Source: Prevotella sp.
Lineage (GTDB): Bacteria; Bacteroidota; Bacteroidia; Bacteroidales; Bacteroidaceae
Direction of reading: 5' to 3'
DNA length: 64,000 bases
Assembly: GCA_017470345.1 (NCBI GenBank)
Contig: JAFUEP010000042.1
Location: 1 to 64,000, forward strand
The notes beneath the pieces are model-generated. The model was not told the origin of the DNA. It saw only the letters and a list, made by a program, of their open reading frames with translations, and did no database searches. Of the stretch, positions 7,166-62,576 are shown piece by piece (positions within the stretch are counted from its first letter, which is position 1; each line of letters starts with the position of its first letter). Both the position numbers and the translations under genes were made by a program.

Positions 7166-7648
7166 TTATTTATATATCTTCATGGCCCGGTCCATCTCGC
7201 GGCGGTCCTCCTTCTCCTTCAGCGTCTGACGCTTGTCGTAGGCCTTCTTACCCTTGCAGAGGGCGATGTCCATCTTGGCGCGCCCGTTAGCGTCAATCCA
7301 CACCAGGGTAGGCACGATGGTGTAGCCCGTTTGCTTCGTAGCGCTCTCGAGGCGGTTGATCTCGCGCCTGGTCAGGAGCAGCTTGCGGTCGCGCTTCTGC
7401 TCATGGTTGTTGTAGGAGCCATAGAAATAGGGGCTGACGGACATGCCCTTGACCCACATCTCGCCACGAATGATCGTGCAGTAGGTGTCGACGAGCGAGG
7501 CCTTGCCCGCACGGATTGACTTGATCTCCGTGCCAGTGAGCACAATGCCGGCCGTGAACTCCTCGATGAAGAAGTATTCGAACGCTGCCTTGCGGTTCTT
7601 TATCTGTACGGGGCTCTTCTTGCGGAGCTCCTCTTGTTGTTTGTTCAT
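7166..7648 (-). CDS. smpB: SsrA-binding protein SmpB
   Basis: SmpB binds tmRNA and delivers it to stalled ribosomes for trans-translation. The 160 residues match the family: the [30 protein letters not shown] beta-barrel start is recognised in parts (for example [14 protein letters not shown] at about 40-53), and the basic tail ([20 protein letters not shown]) is the segment that folds into a helix in the decoding site. The start ATG overlaps the TGA of the upstream DMP19 gene by 4 bp, and metH begins 3 bp downstream. No tmRNA gene was found in this window. Confidence 0.96.
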
Positions 7649-8151
7649 ACGACAGTAGCAAAATTCTCGATGTTGTTATCCACATAGCGTGCGACCTGAG
7701 CCGTCAGCTCCTCCTCGTTCTCGACGAACCAGTCGTCGTAGTCGTCGAACTCGGGATGCAGCTCAAAGAGCGCCATGAACTCCTCGTCAGTGCAGTCGCG
7801 CTCCAGCTCCTCACGCGACTGGAGCCACAGCGTGTGGACCTCATAGAGCCGTTTGCCGAGCTCGCGAATGCCCCAAATCTTGTTGAGAACCTTGGCAAAG
7901 GGATTCTTGAAGATGAGCGGGCCATACCCATTGTGTATCAACTGGATAAACCCTCCGTCCATCACTTCCTCATGAAGCGTGTCCCAACAGAGCAGCGTCA
8001 CCTGGTCGACGCTCAGTTCGGTGATATTCTCACTGGTCAGTTCGCCTCCGATGGCCTCACGCAGGGCCTTGATGAAGACGGCGAGAAACTCGTCCATCCC
8101 CTCCATGGCCGCCTGGCTCAGGTCTTGGTCTTTAATCGTTATCTGTATCAT
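7645..8151 (-). CDS. DMP19 / DUF4375 family protein
   Basis: The 168-residue acidic protein contains the conserved block [13 protein letters not shown] (about residues 65-77) with flanking helices, as in DMP19-like (DUF4375) proteins. A viral member is described as a DNA-mimic protein; the role of chromosomal bacterial members is unknown to me. The C-terminal half is very acidic ([18 protein letters not shown]). The ATG reading MIQITIKDQ was chosen over an upstream one because the upstream codons overlap a clear promoter, which would leave no leader. It is the first gene of the operon continuing with smpB and metH. Confidence 0.75.
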
Positions 8152-8159
8152 TGCGAGTG

Positions 8160-8191
8160 CAAAGATACAACAAATAATCGTAACCACCAAA
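8160..8191 (-). promoter_or_regulatory. Bacteroidetes-type promoter for the DMP19-smpB-metH operon
   Basis: Read on the minus strand, TTTG (at 8188-8191) is followed by 20 bp and TATCTTTG (8160-8167), an exact match to the TTTG / TAnnTTTG sigma-ABfr promoter consensus. The -7 element ends 9 bp before the chosen start codon, so the leader is very short. Confidence 0.8.
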
Positions 8192-8215: not shown

Positions 8216-8295
8216 AAAGTACCCCTTTGACTGCATCAAAGGACCGCTTTGAGGGTCATAAAGGACCGCTTTGCCCATGTCAAAGGACCGCTTTG
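8216..8295. repeat. 22-bp-period palindrome array A (four units)
   Basis: Four 14-bp cores begin at 8216, 8238, 8260 and 8282, exactly 22 bp apart. The first is AAAGTACCCCTTTG and the other three are AAAGGACCGCTTTG. The 8-bp spacers are all different (ACTGCATC, AGGGTCAT, CCCATGTC). Each core begins AAAG and ends CTTTG, so it is quasi-palindromic. The array lies between the divergent promoters of the smpB-metH operon and galM. Three related arrays occur in this window. Confidence 0.85.
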
Positions 8296-8456: not shown

Positions 8457-9623
8457 ATGAAGACAAGAAAAGCATCTTTACTCGGCGCTGGCGCTATCAT
8501 GGCCCTCGCCCTGGCTTCGTGTGACGGCCAGTCTGGCCAGCAGCTGACACTGTCGGGTCTCGACGCCGCAAAGTTCGACACAGTGATTAACGAGAAGCCC
8601 GTAGGACTCTACACCCTGACCAACGAGCAGGGCATGGAGGTCTGCGTGACCAACTTCGGCGGTCGCGTGGTGAGCATCATGGTGCCCGACCGCGACGGCA
8701 AGATGACTGACGTCGTGCTGGGCTACGACAACATCGCCCAGTATGCCGACGCAGCCAACTTCGGCAGCGACTTCGGCGCCTCGATCGGCCGCTATGCCAA
8801 CCGCATCAAGAACGGACAGTTCACCCTCAACGACAGCGTCATCCAGCTGCCCCAGAACAACTTCGGCCATTGCCTGCACGGCGGTCCCACTGGATGGCAG
8901 TATCAGGTCTATGAGGCCCAGCAGGTAGATCCCCAGACGCTGAAGCTGACCCTCGTCTCGCCTGACGGCGACAACCAGTTCCCTGGCCAGGTGACTGCCA
9001 CAGTGACCTACACGCTGACCGCTGAGAACGCCCTTGACATCAAGATGGAAGCCGAGACAGACGCGCCCACGATTGTCAACATGACCAACCACTCGTATTT
9101 CAACCTGAACGGTGATCCCACACAGCCCGCCATGGACATGGTGATGTATATCAATGCTGACAAGTTCACGCCTGCCGACTCAACGTTTATGCCTACAGGC
9201 GAGGTGCGCGACGTCACGGGCACGCCCATGGACTTCCGTACGGCCCACGCCATTCAAGATTCGCTCCGCATGGACGACGAGCAGGTGCGCTTCGGCAACG
9301 GCTTCGACCACAACTGGATTCTCAACACCAACGGCGACGACACCCAGGTCTGCGCCTCGCTCTATTCGCCCAAGACGGGCATCCTGCTTGAGGCCTTCAC
9401 CAACGAGCCCGGCATGCAGGTCTACACTGGCAACTTCCAGGGCATCGACGGCGAGCAGGACAAGGTGCGCAAGGGCGGCCTGAAGTATCCGCAGCGCCCC
9501 TCCGTCTGCCTCGAGAGCCAGAAGTATCCCGACTCGCCCAACCATCCCGAGTGGCCCAGCCCCTATCTGAACCCCGGCGAGAAGTACTATAGCCACCTGG
9601 TTTTCAAGTTCTCAGTTAAGTGA
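8457..9623 (+). CDS. galM: Aldose 1-epimerase (mutarotase), lipoprotein
   Basis: GalM-type enzymes interconvert alpha and beta anomers of aldoses. The 388-residue protein has a lipoprotein signal with lipobox ALASC (lipidated Cys22), so it acts outside the cytoplasm. The mutarotase domain starts at about residue 45 (GLYTLTNEQGMEVCVTNFG) and shows GRYANRIKNG, the catalytic His in NMTNHSYFNLNG and the catalytic Glu region TNEPGMQVYTGNF. It is the first gene after the arabinose-region promoter, so arabinose or arabinose oligomers are plausible substrates. Its stop codon TGA is also the first three bases of the left arm of the following inverted repeat. Confidence 0.92.
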   Translation: MKTRKASLLGAGAIMALALASCDGQSGQQLTLSGLDAAKFDTVINEKPVGLYTLTNEQGMEVCVTNFGGRVVSIMVPDRDGKMTDVVLGYDNIAQYADAANFGSDFGASIGRYANRIKNGQFTLNDSVIQLPQNNFGHCLHGGPTGWQYQVYEAQQVDPQTLKLTLVSPDGDNQFPGQVTATVTYTLTAENALDIKMEAETDAPTIVNMTNHSYFNLNGDPTQPAMDMVMYINADKFTPADSTFMPTGEVRDVTGTPMDFRTAHAIQDSLRMDDEQVRFGNGFDHNWILNTNGDDTQVCASLYSPKTGILLEAFTNEPGMQVYTGNFQGIDGEQDKVRKGGLKYPQRPSVCLESQKYPDSPNHPEWPSPYLNPGEKYYSHLVFKFSVK

Positions 9624-9661
9624 TTGAATATTGAATATTGAAAATTGAAAATTAGCTGCGC
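9621..9661 (+). repeat. Left 41-bp inverted arm flanking the four-helix-bundle gene
   Basis: The arm consists of degenerate tandem units (TTGAATA, TTGAATA, TTGAAAA, TTGAAAA) and ends in TTAGCTGCGC immediately before the ATG of the next gene. It pairs with the arm at 10065-10105 with few mismatches. The tandem-unit construction and the CTGCGC end are shared with the hairpin before araR. Confidence 0.8.
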
Positions 9662-10075
9662 ATGGAGACTGGCAACAAGATCCTGGATCTTTCAAAGGCT
9701 TATGCTATCCGCATCATACGTTTGTACCAATTTCTTAATAATGAAAAGCGAGAGTACATCTTGTCGAGACAATTATTAAGAAGCGGTACAAGCATAGGAG
9801 CTAATGTCAGGGAGAGTATCAATGCGCAGAGCAAATTAGATTTCATCAATAAATTAAACATCGCCTTAAAGGAATCGAACGAGACTGAATACTGGCTGGA
9901 GTTATTATACGAAACTGATTACATTGAAGAAACTATGTTTTCTTCGTTTATAACAGATAATCATAACATCTCCGGCACACTGGTCAACATTATAAAGACT
10001 ACAAAAAACAATTTAAATAACAAAACACTTAACCCAAAGATTGAAAGTGAGAATGGTGATGACGGCGCAGCCTAA
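9662..10075 (+). CDS. Four-helix-bundle protein of the S23 / 23S rRNA intervening-sequence family
   Basis: The 137-residue protein has the family pattern: an N-terminal helix (ILDLSKAYAIRIIRLYQFL), then SRQLLRSGTSIGANVRES near residues 38-55, then ESNETEYWLELLYETDYI near 79-96. Proteins of this fold include those encoded in intervening sequences of 23S rRNA and Avd of diversity-generating retroelements; the function of isolated copies is not established. The gene is AT-rich (many TTA, AAT and ATA codons) inside a GC- and C-rich operon, which suggests later arrival. Its start codon abuts the left inverted arm and its stop lies at the inner edge of the right arm, so gene and arms look like one insertion unit between galM and the transporter. 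Confidence 0.88.
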   Translation: METGNKILDLSKAYAIRIIRLYQFLNNEKREYILSRQLLRSGTSIGANVRESINAQSKLDFINKLNIALKESNETEYWLELLYETDYIEETMFSSFITDNHNISGTLVNIIKTTKNNLNNKTLNPKIESENGDDGAA

Positions 10076-10105
10076 TCTTCAATATTCAATCTTCAATCTT
10101 CAATA
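10065..10105 (-). repeat. Right 41-bp inverted arm flanking the four-helix-bundle gene
   Basis: Read on the minus strand it has units TTGAAGA, TTGAAGA, TTGAATA and TTGAAGA, then TTAGGCTGCGC, mirroring the left arm at 9621-9661. The last codons and the TAA of the four-helix gene lie inside its inner edge. Transcript from the galM promoter would fold the two arms together with the gene as the loop. Confidence 0.8.
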
Positions 10106-11864: not shown

Positions 11865-11943
11865 CAGTACATAGTTCATAGTGCAAAGTTCATAGTCGAA
11901 CTGCGCATTATGAACTATGAACTACGAACTGTGAATTATGAAC
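11865..11943. repeat. Gene-less tandem-repeat hairpin preceding araR
   Basis: The left half has repeated AGTTCATAGT units, the apex reads CGAACTGCGCATT, and the right half has TATGAAC units (TATGAACTATGAACTACGAA in part), so the region can fold into a long imperfect hairpin. CTGCGC near the apex matches the inner border of the arms around the four-helix gene. The araR start codon lies inside the right arm, so folding could limit AraR translation. Confidence 0.7.
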
Positions 11944-12612
11944 TTCTATAGTGAACACGCGAAAGTCTGGGTGTCGGTCGATGTCATCATCTTTGGCTTC
12001 GACGAAGGTCAGCTGAAGATTCTCATCGGCCGACGCCAGATGGATCCCGGACGAGGACAATGGAGCCTCTATGGTGGATTCGTCGGCACCAGCGAGAGCA
12101 TCGACCAGGCAGCAGAACGCACCCTGCAAGAGCTCACAGGCATGCAGCGGCTCTATATGCGCCAGCTGGGAGCTTTCGGAGCCGTCGACCGCGACCCTGG
12201 CGAACGCGTCATTTCGATTGCCTACTACGCACTCATCAACGTTGCCGACTACGACGAGAAGCTGCGTGCGCAGTACGGGCTGGAGTGGGTCGACGTCAAC
12301 CATGTGCCGCAGCTCTATTCCGACCACAACGAGATGGTGGCCATGGCGTTGAGCAAGATGAGGCAGAAGATCAAGTCCGAGCCCATCAGCTTCCGGCTGC
12401 TGCCTCCGCTCTTCACCCTCACCCAACTGCAGCACCTCTATGAAGCCGTGCTTGGTGAGGAAGTCGACAAGCGCAACTTCCGCAAGCGCATCAAGGACAT
12501 GGACTTCATTGAGAAGACCGAACTCATCGACAAGACCTCGTCGAAACGCGGTGCTGCGCTCTTCCGCTTCAATCGGAAGGCCTATAAAGAGGATCCGAAC
12601 TTCAAACTATAA
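11938..12612 (+). CDS. araR: AraR-type Nudix-domain transcriptional regulator
   Basis: The 224-residue protein joins a Nudix fold (about residues 8-135) to a winged-helix DNA-binding domain (about 150-220, with RNFRKRIKDMDFIEKT as the likely recognition region). The Nudix box is degenerate: the spacing from GGFVGTSE to RTLQELTG fits, but two of the three catalytic Glu are replaced (Thr and Leu), so it probably binds a ligand without hydrolysing it. Nudix regulators of this build control L-arabinose use in Bacteroides (AraR), where arabinose releases the protein from DNA. Its place before araD and araA agrees. The ATG lies in a hairpin arm, which may modulate translation. Confidence 0.88.
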   Translation: MNFYSEHAKVWVSVDVIIFGFDEGQLKILIGRRQMDPGRGQWSLYGGFVGTSESIDQAAERTLQELTGMQRLYMRQLGAFGAVDRDPGERVISIAYYALINVADYDEKLRAQYGLEWVDVNHVPQLYSDHNEMVAMALSKMRQKIKSEPISFRLLPPLFTLTQLQHLYEAVLGEEVDKRNFRKRIKDMDFIEKTELIDKTSSKRGAALFRFNRKAYKEDPNFKL

Positions 12613-22170: not shown

Positions 22171-22476
22171 ATGAAAAAGATTGCATTTATGTTCGTTGCA
22201 GCTGCTATGTTCGCAGCTTGCGGTGGTGAGCAGAAGCCCGCTCAGGAAGCAGAAGTTGAAGCACCCGTTGAGGAGGCTGTTGAGGAGATTGTCCTGACCG
22301 CTGAGGATTCAGCTGCTGTTCTCGCTCAGTTCGAGGAAGGCGCAGAGGTTGCTGACTCCGTTCTGGAGGCTGCTTTCGCTGATTGCCTGGCCAAGAAGGT
22401 CGCCGCTGCTGCTGAGGCAGTAGAGGAGGTTGCCGCTGAGGCTACCGAGGCCGTTGAGGAAGCTGTTGAGGAGTAA
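22171..22476 (+). CDS. Small acidic lipoprotein-like protein, Ala/Glu/Val-rich
   Basis: The 101-residue product has a lipoprotein-type signal (MKKIAFMFVAAAMFAACGG, candidate Cys17), then a mature part made almost wholly of Ala, Glu and Val. EAVEE, EVEE and EEAVEE repeats at both ends would form an amphipathic or coiled helix. The net charge of the mature part is strongly negative. I recognise no domain. Similar tiny acidic lipoproteins occur in Bacteroidetes without known function. It stands alone between its own promoter and terminator, which points to a highly expressed single gene. Confidence 0.75.
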   Translation: MKKIAFMFVAAAMFAACGGEQKPAQEAEVEAPVEEAVEEIVLTAEDSAAVLAQFEEGAEVADSVLEAAFADCLAKKVAAAAEAVEEVAAEATEAVEEAVEE

Positions 22477-22595: not shown

Positions 22596-22697
22596 AAAGC
22601 GGCACTTTGACCACGCCAAAGCGGCACTTTGATGACCTCAAAGCGGTACTTTGACAATGCTAAAGCGGTACTTTGTTGAAGGAAAAGCGGTACTTCG
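22596..22697. repeat. 22-bp-period palindrome array B (five units)
   Basis: Cores start at 22596, 22618, 22640, 22662 and 22684: AAAGCGGCACTTTG twice, AAAGCGGTACTTTG twice, then AAAGCGGTACTTCG. Spacers are ACCACGCC, ATGACCTC, ACAATGCT and TTGAAGGA. It lies between two convergent genes, after the terminator of the acidic lipoprotein gene and before that of rpsP. The core is the reverse-complement orientation of that in array A, with internal changes. Confidence 0.87.
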
Positions 22698-22763: not shown

Positions 22764-23282
22764 TTATGCCTCAGCTGGAGCTTCTTCGGCAGGTGCTGCA
22801 GCTTCCTGAGCAGCAGCCTCAGCGGCGGCCTTCTTCTCAGCCACCTTCTTGGCGATAGCCTCGTTCACCTTCTTCTCGGCATCGAGAGCCTTCTGAGCGG
22901 CTTCCTTCTTAGCTTTCTGTTCTGCCTCGCGGACCTTGTCGAGACCGCGCTGCTTGTCTGCCTTCCATGCATCGAACTTGCGCTGAGCGGCCTCCTCGTC
23001 GAAAGCACCCTTGCGCACACCTCCGCGGAGATGCTTCATCAAGTAGACGCCCTCGTCGCTGAGGATGTTGCGTACGGTGTCAGTGGGCTGAGCACCAGTC
23101 TCAACCCAATAGAGTGCACGCTCGAAATTAAGGTCTACCGTGGCGGGATTGGTGTTAGGGTTGTACGTACCAATCTTCTCAGTGAAACGACCATCACGTG
23201 GTGCACGAGCGTCGGCGATAACGATGCGATAGAAGGCATAGCCTTTGCGTCCACCGCGCTGCAATCTGATTTTTGTTGCCAT
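22764..23282 (-). CDS. rpsP: 30S ribosomal protein S16 with long charged C-terminal extension
   Basis: The first 85 or so residues are a standard S16 ([40 protein letters not shown]). S16 is usually 80-90 residues long; here it has 172. The rest is Lys/Glu then Ala/Glu-rich and predicted helical (for example [18 protein letters not shown]), ending EEAPAEA. Bacteroidetes S16 proteins commonly carry such extensions; their role is not known to me. The gene is monocistronic with a consensus promoter and strong terminator. Confidence 0.96.
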
Positions 23283-46865: not shown

Positions 46866-49800
46866 TTAGATTTTGTTAATCTTAATATTCAGTTTAAAGT
46901 CGTCAAAGTCAACTTCCGTGCCGTCGTTGTCAGAAATACTGATTGTATCGGCCAGCACCTGCGTCTTAATATAGTCGGCAAATGCACTGATGGCCTTCTC
47001 CACCTCGTTGTTTGGTGCAACGGCAATGTTGATGCGGTCTGTAATCTCCAGTCCACCATCCTTGCGCAGGTTCTGAATGCGGTTGATAAGCTCGCGGGCC
47101 ATACCCTCGTTGCGCAGCTCGTCGTTCAGTTCAACCTCGAGAGCGACGGTCAGTGTTCCCTCATTGGCCACGAGCCATCCTGGAATGTCCTCGCTGATGA
47201 TCTCGACGTCGTCCAGTTCTATCTGTAGGATATTCTCGTCGATGTTTATGCTTAGCGTGCCATTGGCCTCGAGCTCAGCAATCTGTTCCTGACTGAGGGC
47301 GTCGACCTGTGCAGCAACGGCCTTCATCATCTTGCCAAACTTCTTGCCCATCGTTCTGAAGTTACACTTCACCTTCTTCACCAGAACGCCCTGGCCTTCA
47401 ACAAATTTCAGCTCTTTGACATTCACCTCGTTCATAATGAGCTGTTTGACGGCCTCGATATACTTTTTCTGCTCCTCAGTAGCAGGAATCATGATGGCGG
47501 CCAACGGCTGACGCACCTTGATGTTCACCTTGCGGCGCAAGGCGAGCACCATCGACGTGATCTTCTGTGCCATCTCCATGCGAGCCTCGAGGTCAGCATC
47601 AATCAGGCTTTCATCGCATACGGGGAAGGTGTCCAGATGCACGCTCGTCTTCTCGCCGCCAAGATCGCGGTAGAGCTGATCGGCATAGAAAGGTGCAAAG
47701 GGTGCCAGCAGCTTGCTGACAGTTATAAGACAGGTATAGAGCGTGTCGTAAGCCGAGCGCTTGTCGTCGCTCATATCCTTGCCCCAGAAGCGCTTACGGT
47801 TGAGTCGGACGTACCAGTTGGAGAGATCGTCGTTGACGAACTGATCAATCAGTCGGCCTGCACGAGTAGGATCATAGTTGTCCATCTCAGCCTGCACCTT
47901 CTTGACGAGCGTATTCAGGCAGGAGAGGATCCATCGGTCAATCTCCGGACGTTCTGTTTGTTGCGTTGCAGATGGGACATATCCATCAACATTGGCGTAA
48001 AGTGCGAAGAACGAATAGGTATTGTATAGTGTGCCGAAGAACTTGCGGCTCACCTCGGCGACGCCCTCGGGGTCGAACTTCAAGTTGTCCCATGGCTCCG
48101 AGTTGGTCATCATATAAAAGCGGACGGGGTCAGAGCCGTACTTGTCAATCATGTCGAAGGGGTTGACCACATTGCCGACGCGCTTTGACATCTTGTTGCC
48201 CTTGGCGTCGAGCACCAATCCGGTAGAGATGACGTTCTTGAAAGCTACTGAGTCGAAGACCATCGTAGCGATGGCATGCAGAGTGAAGAACCAGCCACGC
48301 GTCTGGTCGACACCTTCATTGATGAAGTCAGCGGGGAAGGCCTCACCTTTGTCGATGAGGTCGCGGTTCTCAAACGGATAATGCTGCTGGGCATAGGGCA
48401 TGGCCCCCGAGTCGAACCAGACGTCAATAAGGTCGGCTTCGCGTTTCATGGGTTTGCCGTCGTCCGTCACCAATATTATATAGTCAGCATAGGGGCGGTG
48501 CAGGTCGATGCGCTGATAGTTCTCGTCGCTCATATTGCCAGGCACAAAACCCTTGTCTTTCAGCGGGTTCGACGTCATGACACCTGCCTCGACGGCCTTT
48601 TCAATCTCGTTATAGAGTTCTTCGACGCTGCCGATGCACTTCTCCTGACCATCTTCCGAGCGCCAGATAGGCAGTGGCGTGCCCCAGAAGCGTGAGCGCG
48701 AGAGGTTCCAGTCGTTCAGGTTCTCCAGCCAGTTGCCGAAGCGGCCCGTGCCTGTCGACTCTGGATGCCATCCGATGGTCTTGTTCAGCTCGCTCATACG
48801 CTCCTTCTTGGCCGTAGAGCGGATGAACCACGAGTCGAGAGGATAGTAGAGCACGGGCTTGTCCGTGCGCCAGCAGTGAGGGTAGTTGTGGGTGTGCTTC
48901 TCAATCTTGAAAACCTTGCCTTGCTGCTTCAGGTCCATGCAGATCGAGATGTCGAGCGTCTCATCCTTGTCTGTAAGCGTCTCGTCATAGGCATTCTTGA
49001 CATAGCGTCCGGCAAACTTGAGCCACTCCTGCTTGTTCACATATTTCTCAACGAAGTCAGGGTCAAGGTCCTCCAGCAAGAAGTATTTGCCCTGAAGGTC
49101 GACAACGGGGCGCTCCAGTCCTTTCTTGTCGATGAGCACGATGGGGCAAATACCTGCCTTCTTGGCGACAAAAGCATCGTCGGCACCGAAGTTTGGCGCG
49201 ATGTGGACGATGCCCGCACCATCTTCCGTCGTCACATAGTCGCCAGGGATCACGCGGAAGGCGTCGCCCATGGGACGTATCATCGGCATCAGCTGTTCAT
49301 AGGTCATGCCGACAAGGTCGGTGCCCTTGTAGTGGCCCACGACGCGATACGGCAGGAACTTGCCACCTTTCTTGAATTCGGGCATCTCGCCGCCGTCGGT
49401 GATTTCTGCTGCTGTGTCGAAGTAAGCAGCGACGCGCGCCTCAGCCAGAATCACCGTGATGGGCTCAGCTGTGTAGGGGTTGTAGGTCTCAAGGGCTACA
49501 TAGTCGATTTTCGGACCCACACAGAGTGCCGAGTTGGCAGCCAGCGTCCAGGGTGTCGTCGTCCATGCGAGGAAGTAACAGGGTCCCCAGTCAGCACCCG
49601 CAGGAGCCTGACCTTTAACCTTAAACAGGGCTGTGCACGTTGTGTCCTTCACGTCGCGGTAACAGCCTGGCTGGTTCAGTTCATGACTCGAAAGGCCTGT
49701 GCCGGCTGCAGGGCTGTACGGCTGTATGGTGTAGCCCTTGTAGAGCAACCCCTTCTTATAAAGTTCTTTGAGCAGCCACCAAAGGGTCTCAATGTACTTA

Positions 49801-50279
49801 TTGTCGTAGGTGATATACGGATGGTCCAGATCGACGAAATAGCCCATGCGCTCCGTCAGGTCACGCCACTCCTGAGTGTACATCATCACGTTCTCGCGAC
49901 ACTTTTGGTTATATTCCTCTGTAGAGATATAACGTGGCGATTCAGGATTGTCGATATCCGCCTTGGTGATGCCCAACGACTTCTCGACAGAGAGTTCCAC
50001 GGGCAGTCCGTGGGTGTCCCATCCTGCCTTGCGCTTCAACTGGAAGCCCTTCATCGTCTTATAGCGGTTGAACGTGTCCTTCAGAGCTCGTCCCAGCACG
50101 TGGTGGATGCCAGGATGGCCGTTGGCCGAGGGAGGACCCTCGAAGAAGACGAACTGCGGGCACCCCTCGCGCTCATCTACAGAACGATGGAAGACATCTT
50201 CCTCCATCCATTTTTCCAGAATTTCCTTGTTTACCTGAGTCAGGTTCATGCCGCTGTGTTCAGCGAATCTTTTTGTCAT
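46866..50279 (-). CDS. ileS: Isoleucyl-tRNA synthetase, eukaryote-like (IleRS2) type with GxHH motif
   Basis: The 1,137-residue enzyme charges tRNA-Ile. The usual class I HxGH signature is replaced by GIHH (Gly57-Ile58-His59-His60, in SANGHPGIHHVLGR). KMSKR is at 696-700. The editing domain is about 190-410 (WTTTPWTLAAN, DYVTTEDGAGIVHIAPNFG in parts). The C-terminus has the anticodon-binding helices and the extended IleRS2-type tail without a zinc finger. Published work on IleRS2 enzymes linked GxHH to very high mupirocin resistance; applying that here is inference. It has a consensus promoter and heads the operon down to rsmE. Confidence 0.97.
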   Translation of the reverse strand: MTKRFAEHSGMNLTQVNKEILEKWMEEDVFHRSVDEREGCPQFVFFEGPPSANGHPGIHHVLGRALKDTFNRYKTMKGFQLKRKAGWDTHGLPVELSVEKSLGITKADIDNPESPRYISTEEYNQKCRENVMMYTQEWRDLTERMGYFVDLDHPYITYDNKYIETLWWLLKELYKKGLLYKGYTIQPYSPAAGTGLSSHELNQPGCYRDVKDTTCTALFKVKGQAPAGADWGPCYFLAWTTTPWTLAANSALCVGPKIDYVALETYNPYTAEPITVILAEARVAAYFDTAAEITDGGEMPEFKKGGKFLPYRVVGHYKGTDLVGMTYEQLMPMIRPMGDAFRVIPGDYVTTEDGAGIVHIAPNFGADDAFVAKKAGICPIVLIDKKGLERPVVDLQGKYFLLEDLDPDFVEKYVNKQEWLKFAGRYVKNAYDETLTDKDETLDISICMDLKQQGKVFKIEKHTHNYPHCWRTDKPVLYYPLDSWFIRSTAKKERMSELNKTIGWHPESTGTGRFGNWLENLNDWNLSRSRFWGTPLPIWRSEDGQEKCIGSVEELYNEIEKAVEAGVMTSNPLKDKGFVPGNMSDENYQRIDLHRPYADYIILVTDDGKPMKREADLIDVWFDSGAMPYAQQHYPFENRDLIDKGEAFPADFINEGVDQTRGWFFTLHAIATMVFDSVAFKNVISTGLVLDAKGNKMSKRVGNVVNPFDMIDKYGSDPVRFYMMTNSEPWDNLKFDPEGVAEVSRKFFGTLYNTYSFFALYANVDGYVPSATQQTERPEIDRWILSCLNTLVKKVQAEMDNYDPTRAGRLIDQFVNDDLSNWYVRLNRKRFWGKDMSDDKRSAYDTLYTCLITVSKLLAPFAPFYADQLYRDLGGEKTSVHLDTFPVCDESLIDADLEARMEMAQKITSMVLALRRKVNIKVRQPLAAIMIPATEEQKKYIEAVKQLIMNEVNVKELKFVEGQGVLVKKVKCNFRTMGKKFGKMMKAVAAQVDALSQEQIAELEANGTLSINIDENILQIELDDVEIISEDIPGWLVANEGTLTVALEVELNDELRNEGMARELINRIQNLRKDGGLEITDRINIAVAPNNEVEKAISAFADYIKTQVLADTISISDNDGTEVDFDDFKLNIKINKI

Positions 50280-50436: not shown

Positions 50437-50516
50437 AAAGGACCGCTTCGTCGTCGTCGAAGGAGCGTTGTGTCACACACACAGGACCGCCGCGCCACCA
50501 GAAAAGGACAACTTCA
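50437..50516. repeat. 22-bp-period palindrome array C (four degenerate units)
   Basis: Units start at 50437, 50459, 50481 and 50503: AAAGGACCGCTTCG, GAAGGAGCGTTGTG, ACAGGACCGCCGCG and AAAGGACAACTTCA, with 8-bp spacers TCGTCGTC, TCACACAC and CCACCAGA. The sequence has decayed but the 22-bp step is exact, which shows common origin with arrays A, B and D. It lies between the BASS transporter end and the ileS promoter. Confidence 0.75.
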
Positions 50517-50545: not shown

Positions 50546-51505
50546 TCATCCCTTCTCATCCATCTTTTTCTTCTGCCAGATTTCAATCGAGTTGATGATA
50601 TTCTGCCAAAGAATATAGCAACCTGGACCGACTGAGGAGAGCGGATTCAGATAGGTGTAGGCTATCCAAATGGCGAAGGCAGTGTTCTTCTGTCCCAAAG
50701 CCTGACCTGCCTCCTGGGTGCGGTCGAAGAAATGGCCGATGAAGCGACCTACGGCAAACTGCACTACACAGAGCATCAGACCCAGCAGGGCGATGGCCAT
50801 CAAAAGGGCGACAGAGGTCTCGGCGTGGACAATGTTCTTCACCGTAGTGCCCGTGACGATCATGAGCGAGCAGCCCCACATGTAATAGCTCAAGTCACGA
50901 ATGGAGATAATCCAGCGATGCAGGCGGTGCATGTGGTGCTTCACGACATAGGCCATACCCATCGGAATGACGAGCACGAGGAGCACCTCGCGAAATATCT
51001 CGGCAAAAGCCTGCCAGAATGTGATGTGGGCCGACTTCTCGATCATTGGAAAGCAAATGGGGACGAGCAGCACTGTCAGGATGTTGGAGAGGAAGGTGTA
51101 GGTCGTCATCTGCTCGAGGGAGCCACCCAGTTTCTGGGTGACCACAGCAGCCGCAGTGGCACAAGGAGAGATGATACACATCAGGAGGGCCTCGGCAAGC
51201 ACCAGCGTGTCGTCTGTGAGCCTGAAGCAGAGGATGACACCCATTGTGACGCTGACAAAGAGTATATTGAACAGCGTCACCCACAGATGCCATGCGACGG
51301 GTCTGAGAGCACGGAAGTCAACTTTGCAGAATGTGACGAAGAGTATGAGAAACATGAACAGAGGCAGGATAGCCTCGAAAAAAGGAGCGAAGAATCGGGC
51401 CGCCCCATCGAGCGCCGGCACGGAGGCGAAGAGGAGGTAAGCAAGCGTACCCGTTGCCATCGAGACGGGCAGCGTCCAATCTTTGACAAAACGTATGACA
51501 TCCAT
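50546..51505 (-). CDS. BASS-family (bile acid:sodium symporter-like) transporter
   Basis: The 319-residue membrane protein has about ten hydrophobic helices. PLFMFLILFVTFCKVDFRAL early and the crossover region LLMCIISPCATAAAVVTQKLGG (quoted in parts: CIISPCATAAAVVT) fit the BASS superfamily, where the discontinuous helices bind substrate and Na+. The substrate is not known; bile acids are only one option. The ATG reading MDVIRFVKDW was chosen over an upstream TTG that lies in the promoter. Confidence 0.82.
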   Translation of the reverse strand: MDVIRFVKDWTLPVSMATGTLAYLLFASVPALDGAARFFAPFFEAILPLFMFLILFVTFCKVDFRALRPVAWHLWVTLFNILFVSVTMGVILCFRLTDDTLVLAEALLMCIISPCATAAAVVTQKLGGSLEQMTTYTFLSNILTVLLVPICFPMIEKSAHITFWQAFAEIFREVLLVLVIPMGMAYVVKHHMHRLHRWIISIRDLSYYMWGCSLMIVTGTTVKNIVHAETSVALLMAIALLGLMLCVVQFAVGRFIGHFFDRTQEAGQALGQKNTAFAIWIAYTYLNPLSSVGPGCYILWQNIINSIEIWQKKKMDEKG

Positions 51506-51514
51506 AACGGTGGG

Positions 51515-51522
51515 CAAAGGTA
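51515..51522 (-). promoter_or_regulatory. -7 box for the BASS transporter
   Basis: TACCTTTG on the minus strand ends 9 bp before the chosen ATG. No -33 TTTG is seen at the usual distance. Confidence 0.55.
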
Positions 51523-61385: not shown

Positions 61386-61426
61386 TTTATCGCCCACCAT
61401 TTTCTTTCAAACGCACCCCTAAAAAC

Positions 61427-61528
61427 AAAGGACCGCTTTGAGGTCGTCAAAGCGGTCCTTTGAAGCAAGAGAAGCGGTCCTTTGAGACCTTCAAAGCGGT
61501 CCTTTGAGTGAGGATAAACGCCACTTTG
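61427..61528. repeat. 22-bp-period palindrome array D (five units)
   Basis: Units begin at 61427, 61449, 61471, 61493 and 61515. The first is AAAGGACCGCTTTG, the next three are AAAGCGGTCCTTTG (third GAAG...), the last TAAACGCCACTTTG. Spacers are AGGTCGTC, AAGCAAGA, AGACCTTC and AGTGAGGA. Here the core appears in both orientations within one array, so units 1 and 2 form a 15-bp perfect hairpin. It lies between the divergent esterase and etfB promoters. Confidence 0.87.
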
Positions 61529-61575
61529 AGAAATGGGCCGGAAAAGAAGGATTTGACGATTGTTTTGTTGCACAT

Positions 61576-61621
61576 TTCCGAAAAAGTGTGCACATCGGAC
61601 AGCCTTCTGTGCACTTTTCCG
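61576..61621. promoter_or_regulatory. Imperfect inverted repeat upstream of etfB
   Basis: TTCCGAAAAAGTGTGCAC and GTGCACTTTTCCG pair around a 15-base centre. It ends 10 bp before the -33 box of the etfB promoter, a fitting place for an activator or repressor site. No other copy is in the window. Confidence 0.4.
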
Positions 61622-61703: not shown

Positions 61704-62576
61704 ATGGCATTAAAGATTGTTGTTCTGGCCAAGCAAGTGCCAGACACCCGTAACGTGGGCAAGGACGCCATGACTGCCGAAGGCACCGTCAACCGCGCCG
61801 CCCTGCCCGCCATCTTCAACCCCGAAGATTTGAACGCCCTGGAGCAAGCCCTCCGGCTGAAGGAGCAGAATCCGGGTTCTACAGTAGGAATCCTCACGAT
61901 GGGTCCTCCACGTGCAGGCGAAATCATCCGTCAGGGACTTTATCGCGGAGCCGACACAGGCTGGCTGCTCACTGACCGTCTCTTTGCAGGAGCCGACACG
62001 CTGGCCACATCTTATGCACTGGCCACGGCCATCAAGAAGATCGGTGACGTCGACATCGTCATTGGCGGCCGTCAGGCCATCGACGGCGACACGGCCCAGG
62101 TTGGTCCCCAGGTGGCCCAGAAGCTGGGTCTCAACCAGGTGACCTATGCTGAGGAAGTATGTTCGGTGAAGGACGGCATTGCCGTCATTAAGCGCGTCAT
62201 CGACGGCGGCGTGGAGACGGTTGAGGCTCCCCTGCCCGTTGTCATCACGGTGAACGGAAGCGCAGCTCCCTGCCGTCCGCAAAATGCGAAGCTGGTGATG
62301 AAGTACAAGCGTGCCACCTGTCCCATGGAGCGTCCTGCCGAAGGCACGCCTTACGACCATCTCTACGAGGAGCGTCTTTATCTGACGCTCAACCAGTGGT
62401 CCGTAGCCGATGTCGACGGCGATGCCTCACAGTGCGGTCTGGCCGGCTCGCCCACCAAGGTGAAGGCTATTAAGAACATCGTGTTCCAGGCCAAGGAATC
62501 GAAGACGCTCAGCGCCAGCGATGCTGACATCGAGGGAATGATCAAGGAATTGTTAGACGAAAAGATTATTGGATAA
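61704..62576 (+). CDS. etfB: Electron transfer flavoprotein beta subunit
   Basis: EtfB holds AMP (or FAD in bifurcating forms) and pairs with EtfA to carry electrons from acyl-CoA dehydrogenases. The 290-residue protein shows LKIVVLAKQVPDTRNVG, NPEDLNALEQAL, GGRQAIDGDTAQVGPQVAQKLG (about 112-133, in parts) and RATCPMERPAEG late. The next genes are etfA and an acyl-CoA dehydrogenase, forming an Etf-dehydrogenase unit. Confidence 0.95.
   Translation: MALKIVVLAKQVPDTRNVGKDAMTAEGTVNRAALPAIFNPEDLNALEQALRLKEQNPGSTVGILTMGPPRAGEIIRQGLYRGADTGWLLTDRLFAGADTLATSYALATAIKKIGDVDIVIGGRQAIDGDTAQVGPQVAQKLGLNQVTYAEEVCSVKDGIAVIKRVIDGGVETVEAPLPVVITVNGSAAPCRPQNAKLVMKYKRATCPMERPAEGTPYDHLYEERLYLTLNQWSVADVDGDASQCGLAGSPTKVKAIKNIVFQAKESKTLSASDADIEGMIKELLDEKIIG

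Follow-up and report, generated by a model that had tools for sequence, protein, structure and literature searches.

The stretch at 61427–61528 raises the question of why short palindromes should follow one another at an exact 22-bp step between two genes, and what might read them. The window (the whole stretch of DNA analysed, 64,000 bp, bases 1–64000 of one contig) belongs to a Prevotella sp. genome (G000; 2.67 Mb assembled, 62% complete). The original prediction described four intergenic loci of 4–5 units, each a 14-bp palindromic core plus an 8-bp spacer, and named cooperative protein binding among its readings. Phased protein binding was left as the best remaining reading, but the class of arrays proved to be wider than had been described.

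All four loci were present in the window, A, B and D clearly and C in a decayed state. Array A (8216–8295, four units, inner letters TACCC and then three times GACCG, step 22 bp) lay between divergent genes (7645–8190, minus strand; 8457–9623, plus strand). Array B (22596–22697, five units, two with CGGCA and three with CGGTA, step 22 bp) lay between a convergent pair, a gene at 22171–22476 (plus) and the ribosomal protein S16 gene at 22764–23282 (minus). Array C (50437–50516) kept four decayed units in 22-bp register between two minus-strand genes, a class I tRNA synthetase (46866–50279) and an SBF transporter (50546–51517), in agreement with the claim that the step is kept where the core has decayed. 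Array D (61427–61528) was flanked by divergent genes for a GDSL lipase-like protein (minus) and an etfB-like protein (61704–62576, plus) and consisted of four units and a decayed fifth (61515–61528). In shuffled versions of the window, AAAGN6TTTG was expected 1.83 times and reached 8 at most in 100 shuffles; the window itself contained 24.

In the type unit (61426–61440) a 15-bp odd palindrome, CAAAGGACCGCTTTG, preceded a gap of 7 bp, and the symmetric form of the unit was CAAAG-N5-CTTTG (15 bp, odd palindrome) plus 7 bp. The 22-bp step of the original prediction was therefore right, but its division into 14 and 8 bp is better read as 15 and 7 bp. By eye, the general form of the core was RAAGCGGYVCTTY in either direction, with Y and V free; since these two positions vary freely, inversion of a unit would need point changes only, passing through near-symmetric forms such as AAGCGGCGCTT. 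All spacers differed within the window, as claimed, but some arrays elsewhere (L190 and L294) shared spacers. Nor was there a single core form: the AAAG...TTTG ends were one variant, and about half of the G000 arrays found ended in TTTT or TTCT.

Two other kinds of short sequence feature were seen in the window. Runs of 7-bp tandem repeats with differing units lay near gene ends at 9623–9653, 10074–10104 and 11866–11944. A TTGCACA...TGTGCAC dyad (61568–61615) was located ~90–140 bp upstream of the etfB-like gene, and the motif was also seen upstream of this gene in L274–L292, L239 and L253; the form TGCACA-N5..25-TGTGC was found in 18 of 21 loci, whether an array was present or absent, and the dyad looks like a separate operator.

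The window arrays are members of a genome-wide family. Matches to AAAGGACCGCTTTG with up to two mismatches numbered 111 in G000, against 10 for the reversed pattern, and 40 further stretches, chosen around some of the matches listed, were examined. In 606,556 bases (~4.9 kb of these counted twice), sites with up to two mismatches to the 11-bp inner core AAGGACCGCTT or its reverse complement gave 132 neighbour distances of 40 bp or less, of which 131 were 22 bp and one was 24 bp. Neither random spacing nor free variation between 20 and 24 bp, named beforehand as evidence against a spacing-dependent function, was found. Among 50 G000 arrays of chained cores (a few of them inside long ORFs and hence doubtful), 39 had four units, five had three and six had five; pairs were entered only if both cores were nearly perfect and chains of fewer than three units were mostly left out, so short arrays were under-counted. 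In the nearest relative, G296, there were 443 inner-core matches with one mismatch allowed (control, 63), and, again with most chains of fewer than three units left out, four units were counted in 20 of 29 arrays from 20 stretches.

G296 was 93% identical to the array-D region over all 1501 bases and served for a count of substitutions, which rests on this one close relative. Across the 52 units of 13 orthologous arrays, differences were counted at 6 of 465 fixed core positions, 12 of 104 free core positions (Y/V), 49 of 461 spacer positions and 165 of 1528 positions in the 60-bp flanks, the last figure perhaps being raised by poorly aligned flanks in some pairs. The difference between core and spacer was significant at P = 3e-10, and the CGG letters, where a hairpin would have its loop, differed at 4 of 156 positions against the same spacers (P = 0.001). 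Five of the 18 ortholog pairs (array C, L181, L205 and both L211 arrays) were left out of this count as decayed, gapped or in ORFs, as were the last units of L206 and array D. Arrays were picked by their core in G000, so core decay on the G000 lineage is hidden; we estimate that this accounts for at most half, against the eightfold difference seen. The cores are under selection, and the spacers keep their length only.

Array length in the 18 pairs differed by whole units, 22 bp (array D, with exactly one unit fewer in G296) or 66 bp (L211/L294); the exception was a single 1-bp gap in L205, a doubtful array inside an ORF. Over whole arrays, 103 of 1385 positions differed, against 223 of 2069 in 60-bp flanks. 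The array had changed faster than its own flanks in 7 of the 18 pairs, including arrays A (4/77 positions; flanks, 2/120) and B (2/99; flanks, 1/120), which places the constraint on the core letters and not on the array as a block. Array C differed at 17 of 77 positions from its G296 ortholog, which looked less decayed. The proposal that spacing is more constrained than sequence was upheld: spacers changed at the flank rate, lengths changed by whole units, and the 22-bp step recurred under other cores, as described below.

Four loci with one core had been described; what was found is a class of several architectures, seen in many Prevotella genomes and with a core particular to each species. 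The genomes compared were mostly metagenome assemblies. AAAGN6TTTG-N8-AAAGN6TTTG occurred in 43 of 200 same-genus genomes and its reversed control in 11 of 200, so that single matches mean little, and since the pattern fixes the step it is no test of the step; genomes rich in it had differing inner letters. At the level of the order, the pattern was found in 1 of 118 genomes besides G000 (G414), where most matches were tandem repeats of a different sort. When the gap was allowed to vary, the step did not change: pairs of GGAGGCTCC in G128 (gaps of 3–30 allowed) were at step 22 in 21 of 21 cases, and pairs of CTAGANTCTAG in G277 (gaps of 1–31 allowed) in 47 of 47, two of which look like duplicated stretches. 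Array sizes in G128 (n = 15) were four units in three arrays, five in nine and six in three, so four units are not universal.

Scans that did not start from a given core were also run. One that scored identity between lags alone showed 22 prominently in several genomes, but in G000 and G296 lags 14 and 21 were as frequent or more so; a scan aware of palindromes took its place. Run on all loci, that scan was biased, since most loci had been chosen by a 22-bp pattern; it was therefore applied to 83 loci of the genus (755,495 bases) taken without 22-bp preselection, where odd palindromes chained at a fixed lag were collected blind to their sequence. At lag 22 there were 23 chains, 11 of them with at least three units (9 distinct places in 9 genomes), with the provisos that two arrays were counted twice through interleaved dyads, that a few loci overlap or are near-copies and that L381, a case of seven units whose spacers are conserved, may be of another nature. 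Every other lag from 16 to 40 gave 0–9 chains, all of two units except one of three at lag 23. A stricter palindrome rule left six chains at lag 22 and at most three at any other lag. The cores at lag 22 were unrelated (e.g. AACGGAGGCTCCGTT, GGTAAAGNCTTTACC, GGAAAAGCCTTTTCC, TTCTAGAGTCTAGAA and TGGAACCNTGTTCCA). In G187, 83% identical in the etfB-like gene, a four-unit array was syntenic with array D and its core had drifted to AAAGCTGTCCTTTG. The step of 22 bp was thus kept across the species tested while the letters of the palindrome changed. Conservation of position in distant species was considered and is not claimed: of 21 comparisons made for one side of a gene, 7 had an array in the reference (by our grouping, 4 distinct loci out of 13), and only the G187 array at etfB was syntenic on both sides.

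Three architectures were distinguished in G000. Class I, to which the window arrays belong, had TTTG ends and no common flank that could be seen by eye. Class II had TTTT or TTCT ends and flanks at a fixed distance. Of 31 aligned copies, 25 (23 from G000, two from G296) were kept after five orthologs and L200, the recent duplicate of L188 (79% alike in variable columns), had been dropped. Motif D (ATTCNGAATTTTNTTTACAAA) stood near both ends in the same direction; fifteen of the 25 elements had 15 or more of its 21 letters at each end, and in the five that passed 17 of 21 at both ends the copies were 175–177 bp apart. Motif P2 (YTGANAATCA...TTRYAA) lay between the array and one end. Between the motifs, mean identity was 31% and that of the best pair 56% (25 copies, 71 variable columns), with distances kept. 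In five G000/G296 ortholog pairs, motif columns outside the units differed at 16 of 250 positions and other columns at 76 of 355. Two further differences between G000 and G296 were noted: L209:6880–7070 (G000) carried an extra ~170 bp with a terminator-like inverted repeat downstream of the array, missing in L306 of G296, and L310:8390–8600 (G296) an extra ~200-bp block with inverted repeats near the class II left boundary, where G000 has other sequence.

Class III elements had the order A-B-A at a step of ~22.5 bp, where B was GTAATATASSSSTATATTAC. Exact copies of B numbered 26 in G000, 41 in G296 and one in G006, with none in the other 296 of 299 genomes searched. In the class III composites (L180:781, L186:6677, L187:11186, L193:193 and L310:2802) a long, almost perfect inverted repeat surrounded GTAATATA(GGGG or CCCC)TATATTAC. 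A similar grammar in other letters was found in G162 (99% complete), where A was CAAAGTTSAACTTTG and B was AACATATATGTT; the order was A-A-B-A, and also B-B-A-B in seven aligned copies with P2 and direct end motifs D' (GGANAANAGAACAAT). The fixed order A-A-B-A points to two readers, or to a single one that has two modes. Strict P2 occurred in 66 of 200 same-genus genomes (reversed control, 0 of 200). An array-like chain was near 4 of 11 P2 sites in the loci examined, and P2 stood beside G128 arrays in one of 30 flanks (15 arrays); since few P2 sites elsewhere adjoin arrays, the link between the two rests on class II of G000 and on G162. P2 is built like motif D (a 9-bp palindrome, 5 bp, TTACAAA). 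It had the form TTGATWATCA-N5-TTRCAAA at L354:1420–1470 (G128) and was occasionally a full palindrome, TTTGYAA-N5-TGATWATCA-N5-TTRCAAA.

By a simple ORF caller, 38 of 49 G000 arrays lay between ORFs, in agreement with the claim that they are not coding; seven of the 11 ORFs that contained an array were of 130 codons or fewer. The 38 intergenic arrays were between co-directional (23), convergent (9) or divergent (6) genes. Read by eye, arrays sat nearer the stop of the upstream gene than the next start. Class II elements between co-directional genes pointed with them in seven cases and against them in five (n = 12, counted by hand). Proteins encoded by 33 of 112 flanking genes and by one further gene (G000 and G296) were scanned with Pfam. 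They included ribosomal protein S16, an electron transfer flavoprotein, a tRNA synthetase, an S13 peptidase, an SRP54-type GTPase, GidB, Band 7, OmpA and FecR proteins and one tyrosine recombinase (L203), with GH25 and GDSL lipase domains twice each; six of the 34 had no Pfam match, and no common function was apparent among the 34.

The observations to be explained are thus the geometry, the peak in copy number, the dispersion over the chromosome, the selection on the cores and their species-specific letters. On balance, we think it probable that a dimeric DNA-binding protein uses the arrays as its sites throughout the chromosome, assembling at every second helical turn, and that the specificity of this protein drifts from one species to another. 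Binding by a protein, its dimeric state and the cooperation of its dimers are our inferences. Each unit would be a double-stranded site occupied by a homodimer, its two half-sites inverted about the central base; a repeat of 22 bp, two helical turns, would set neighbouring dimers nearly on one face of the DNA, where they may touch each other, and in the four-unit arrays that prevail in G000 four dimers would complete the assembly. As for a phased multi-dimer site, the step stayed near whole helical turns whatever the core, and the core was under purifying selection with a free spacer. The cores are read letter by letter, part of the centre included, and the arrays are strand-indifferent. That letters change between species and pitch does not suggests a conserved assembly with drifting specificity: the sequence preference of the protein would drift in each species, the arrays would follow and the geometry of the assembly would stay fixed. 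Its chromosomal role we can guess at; the putative protein might act chromosome-wide (nucleoid folding, bridging, or insulation between transcription units) and not on one regulon. Several points weigh against this reading. A drifting protein must carry some hundred arrays along, which is a demanding coupling; in G162 two unrelated palindromes are combined in a fixed order, for which one dimer may not suffice; the excess conservation of whole arrays given above is modest; and the recombinase at L203 was the one DNA-acting protein among the 34 neighbours scanned. A wider version, which we put forward tentatively, is a genus-wide marking of the chromosome with invariant geometry and site letters rewritten in each species, the letters and a putative fast-evolving protein forming a species-specific code. 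The invariant geometry would then consist of about four dyad sites at 22 bp, sometimes ordered with a second palindrome and flanking motifs.

A dimer assembling on the duplex fits better than recent transposition, RNA hairpins or slippage. A miniature mobile element (REP- or MITE-like), in which a transposase acting on the palindromes or flank motifs spread the arrays and the enzyme assembly sets the 22-bp step, is unlikely, yet several features resemble one: class II has parts in fixed order with direct end motifs in both G000 (D) and G162 (D'), L188 and L200 are a recent duplicate, the class III palindrome is confined to three of 299 genomes, and the species-specific families resemble REPs. 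Against it, the 25 class II copies are on average as little alike as noted, with spacing kept; Y1_Tnp (PF01797) was missing from the array-bearing genomes G296, G187, G012, G162, G046 and G119; GTAG and CGTC tags stood beside only 3 and 8 of 179 units; and the core is under selection. No empty site was found in the 18 ortholog pairs, a weak test as the pairs were found through the array. A RAYT/Y1 transposase as the mover was rejected, PF01797 being present in 17 of the 27 genomes searched, with arrays (G000 among these) or without, and not following the arrays.

Hairpins in RNA or single-stranded DNA, with arrays transcribed as mRNA tails or leaders and serving as terminators, stabilisers or processing signals, seem rather improbable. 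The units are palindromic, opposite units can form long stems, the class III element is a long near-perfect inverted repeat and the closeness to upstream stops (by eye) would suit such a role. Several arrays, however, have one orientation (++++ or ----) and could form short stems only, the would-be loop letters are conserved while other letters vary freely, class II showed no strand preference in 12 cases, and arrays also lie between divergent genes. Rfam gave no match at gathering score in six sources, and a search for fixed-register covariation in the 25 class II elements turned up no convincing pair (all column pairs compared; z of the best <4). It is very improbable that an ordinary transcription factor uses the arrays as the operators of its regulon: the sites are palindromic, phased and intergenic and the GH25 and GDSL lipase domains recur among the scanned neighbours, but the other neighbours are unrelated, convergent regions also hold arrays (9/38) and the copy number is high. 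Functionless minisatellite slippage or chance, to which recent identical units in some arrays (L190, L294) might point, is scarcely credible and is already contradicted by the sequence-blind scan and the core substitution count; 22 is preferred under unrelated cores, most spacers differ and copy number peaks at four.

Where binding sites are scattered in large numbers, their sequence is usually preserved, since a single protein has to recognise every one of them; in these arrays it is the spacing that is preserved, and the letters change. If one protein keeps pace with that change, they offer a tractable case of a DNA-binding protein co-evolving with many sites, in a genus abundant in rumen and gut whose chromosome organisation is little known. 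A ready test is that the cores of a Prevotella genome should be predictable from the 22-bp lattice alone.

No description of such arrays was found in open-licence full texts, and the known systems that come nearest differ in definite ways. According to PMC2817692, REPs are short intergenic palindromes of high copy number, regularly spaced and in alternating orientation in BIMEs. The arrays have in common with REP, BIME and REPIN elements that they are scattered intergenic palindromes in both orientations; they differ by the rigid 22-bp step and the peak at four units, and neither a Y1_Tnp gene in every array-bearing genome (six had no match) nor a regular GTAG or CGTC tag was found. BrickBuilt, a MITE from Porphyromonas gingivalis strains with matches in P. 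gulae, consists, according to PMC4596501, of a 23-nt unit repeated in tandem with no spacers in between, and one strain has 19 copies of it. It is like the arrays in belonging to Bacteroidales, in its intergenic position and in its short tandem unit flanked by leader and tail motifs, and unlike them in the tandem repetition without spacers; the word-stem "palindrom" does not occur in the text of PMC4596501. The whole-length likeness of a MITE family was not seen among the 25 class II elements, where identity averaged 31% and reached 56% at best. The end motifs of class II (D, and D' in G162) are direct repeats. CRISPR, which the original prediction had excluded, is not supported, the 15-bp unit and 7-bp spacer falling short of repeats and spacers each >20 bp; Pfam identified no cas family in the 34 proteins scanned from the neighbourhood of G000 and G296 arrays.

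Plasmid iterons, too, are sets of sites that recur about every two helical turns, but the arrays are scattered over the chromosome, palindromic and in either orientation; no replication initiator was among the 34 scanned neighbours, and the array-D region had no match in 72,556 plasmid records. DNA uptake sequences are short genome-wide signals with dialects that differ between related species, but they are not arrays and have no palindromic cores at fixed pitch. Palindromes of 13–15 bp scattered on the chromosome are known as matS and as the sites of Noc and SlmA, and Lrp-type octamers (Lrp/AsnC) hold four dimers. All these sites are single or loosely spaced and conserved in sequence, whereas in the arrays the spacing is strict and the sequence has turned over.
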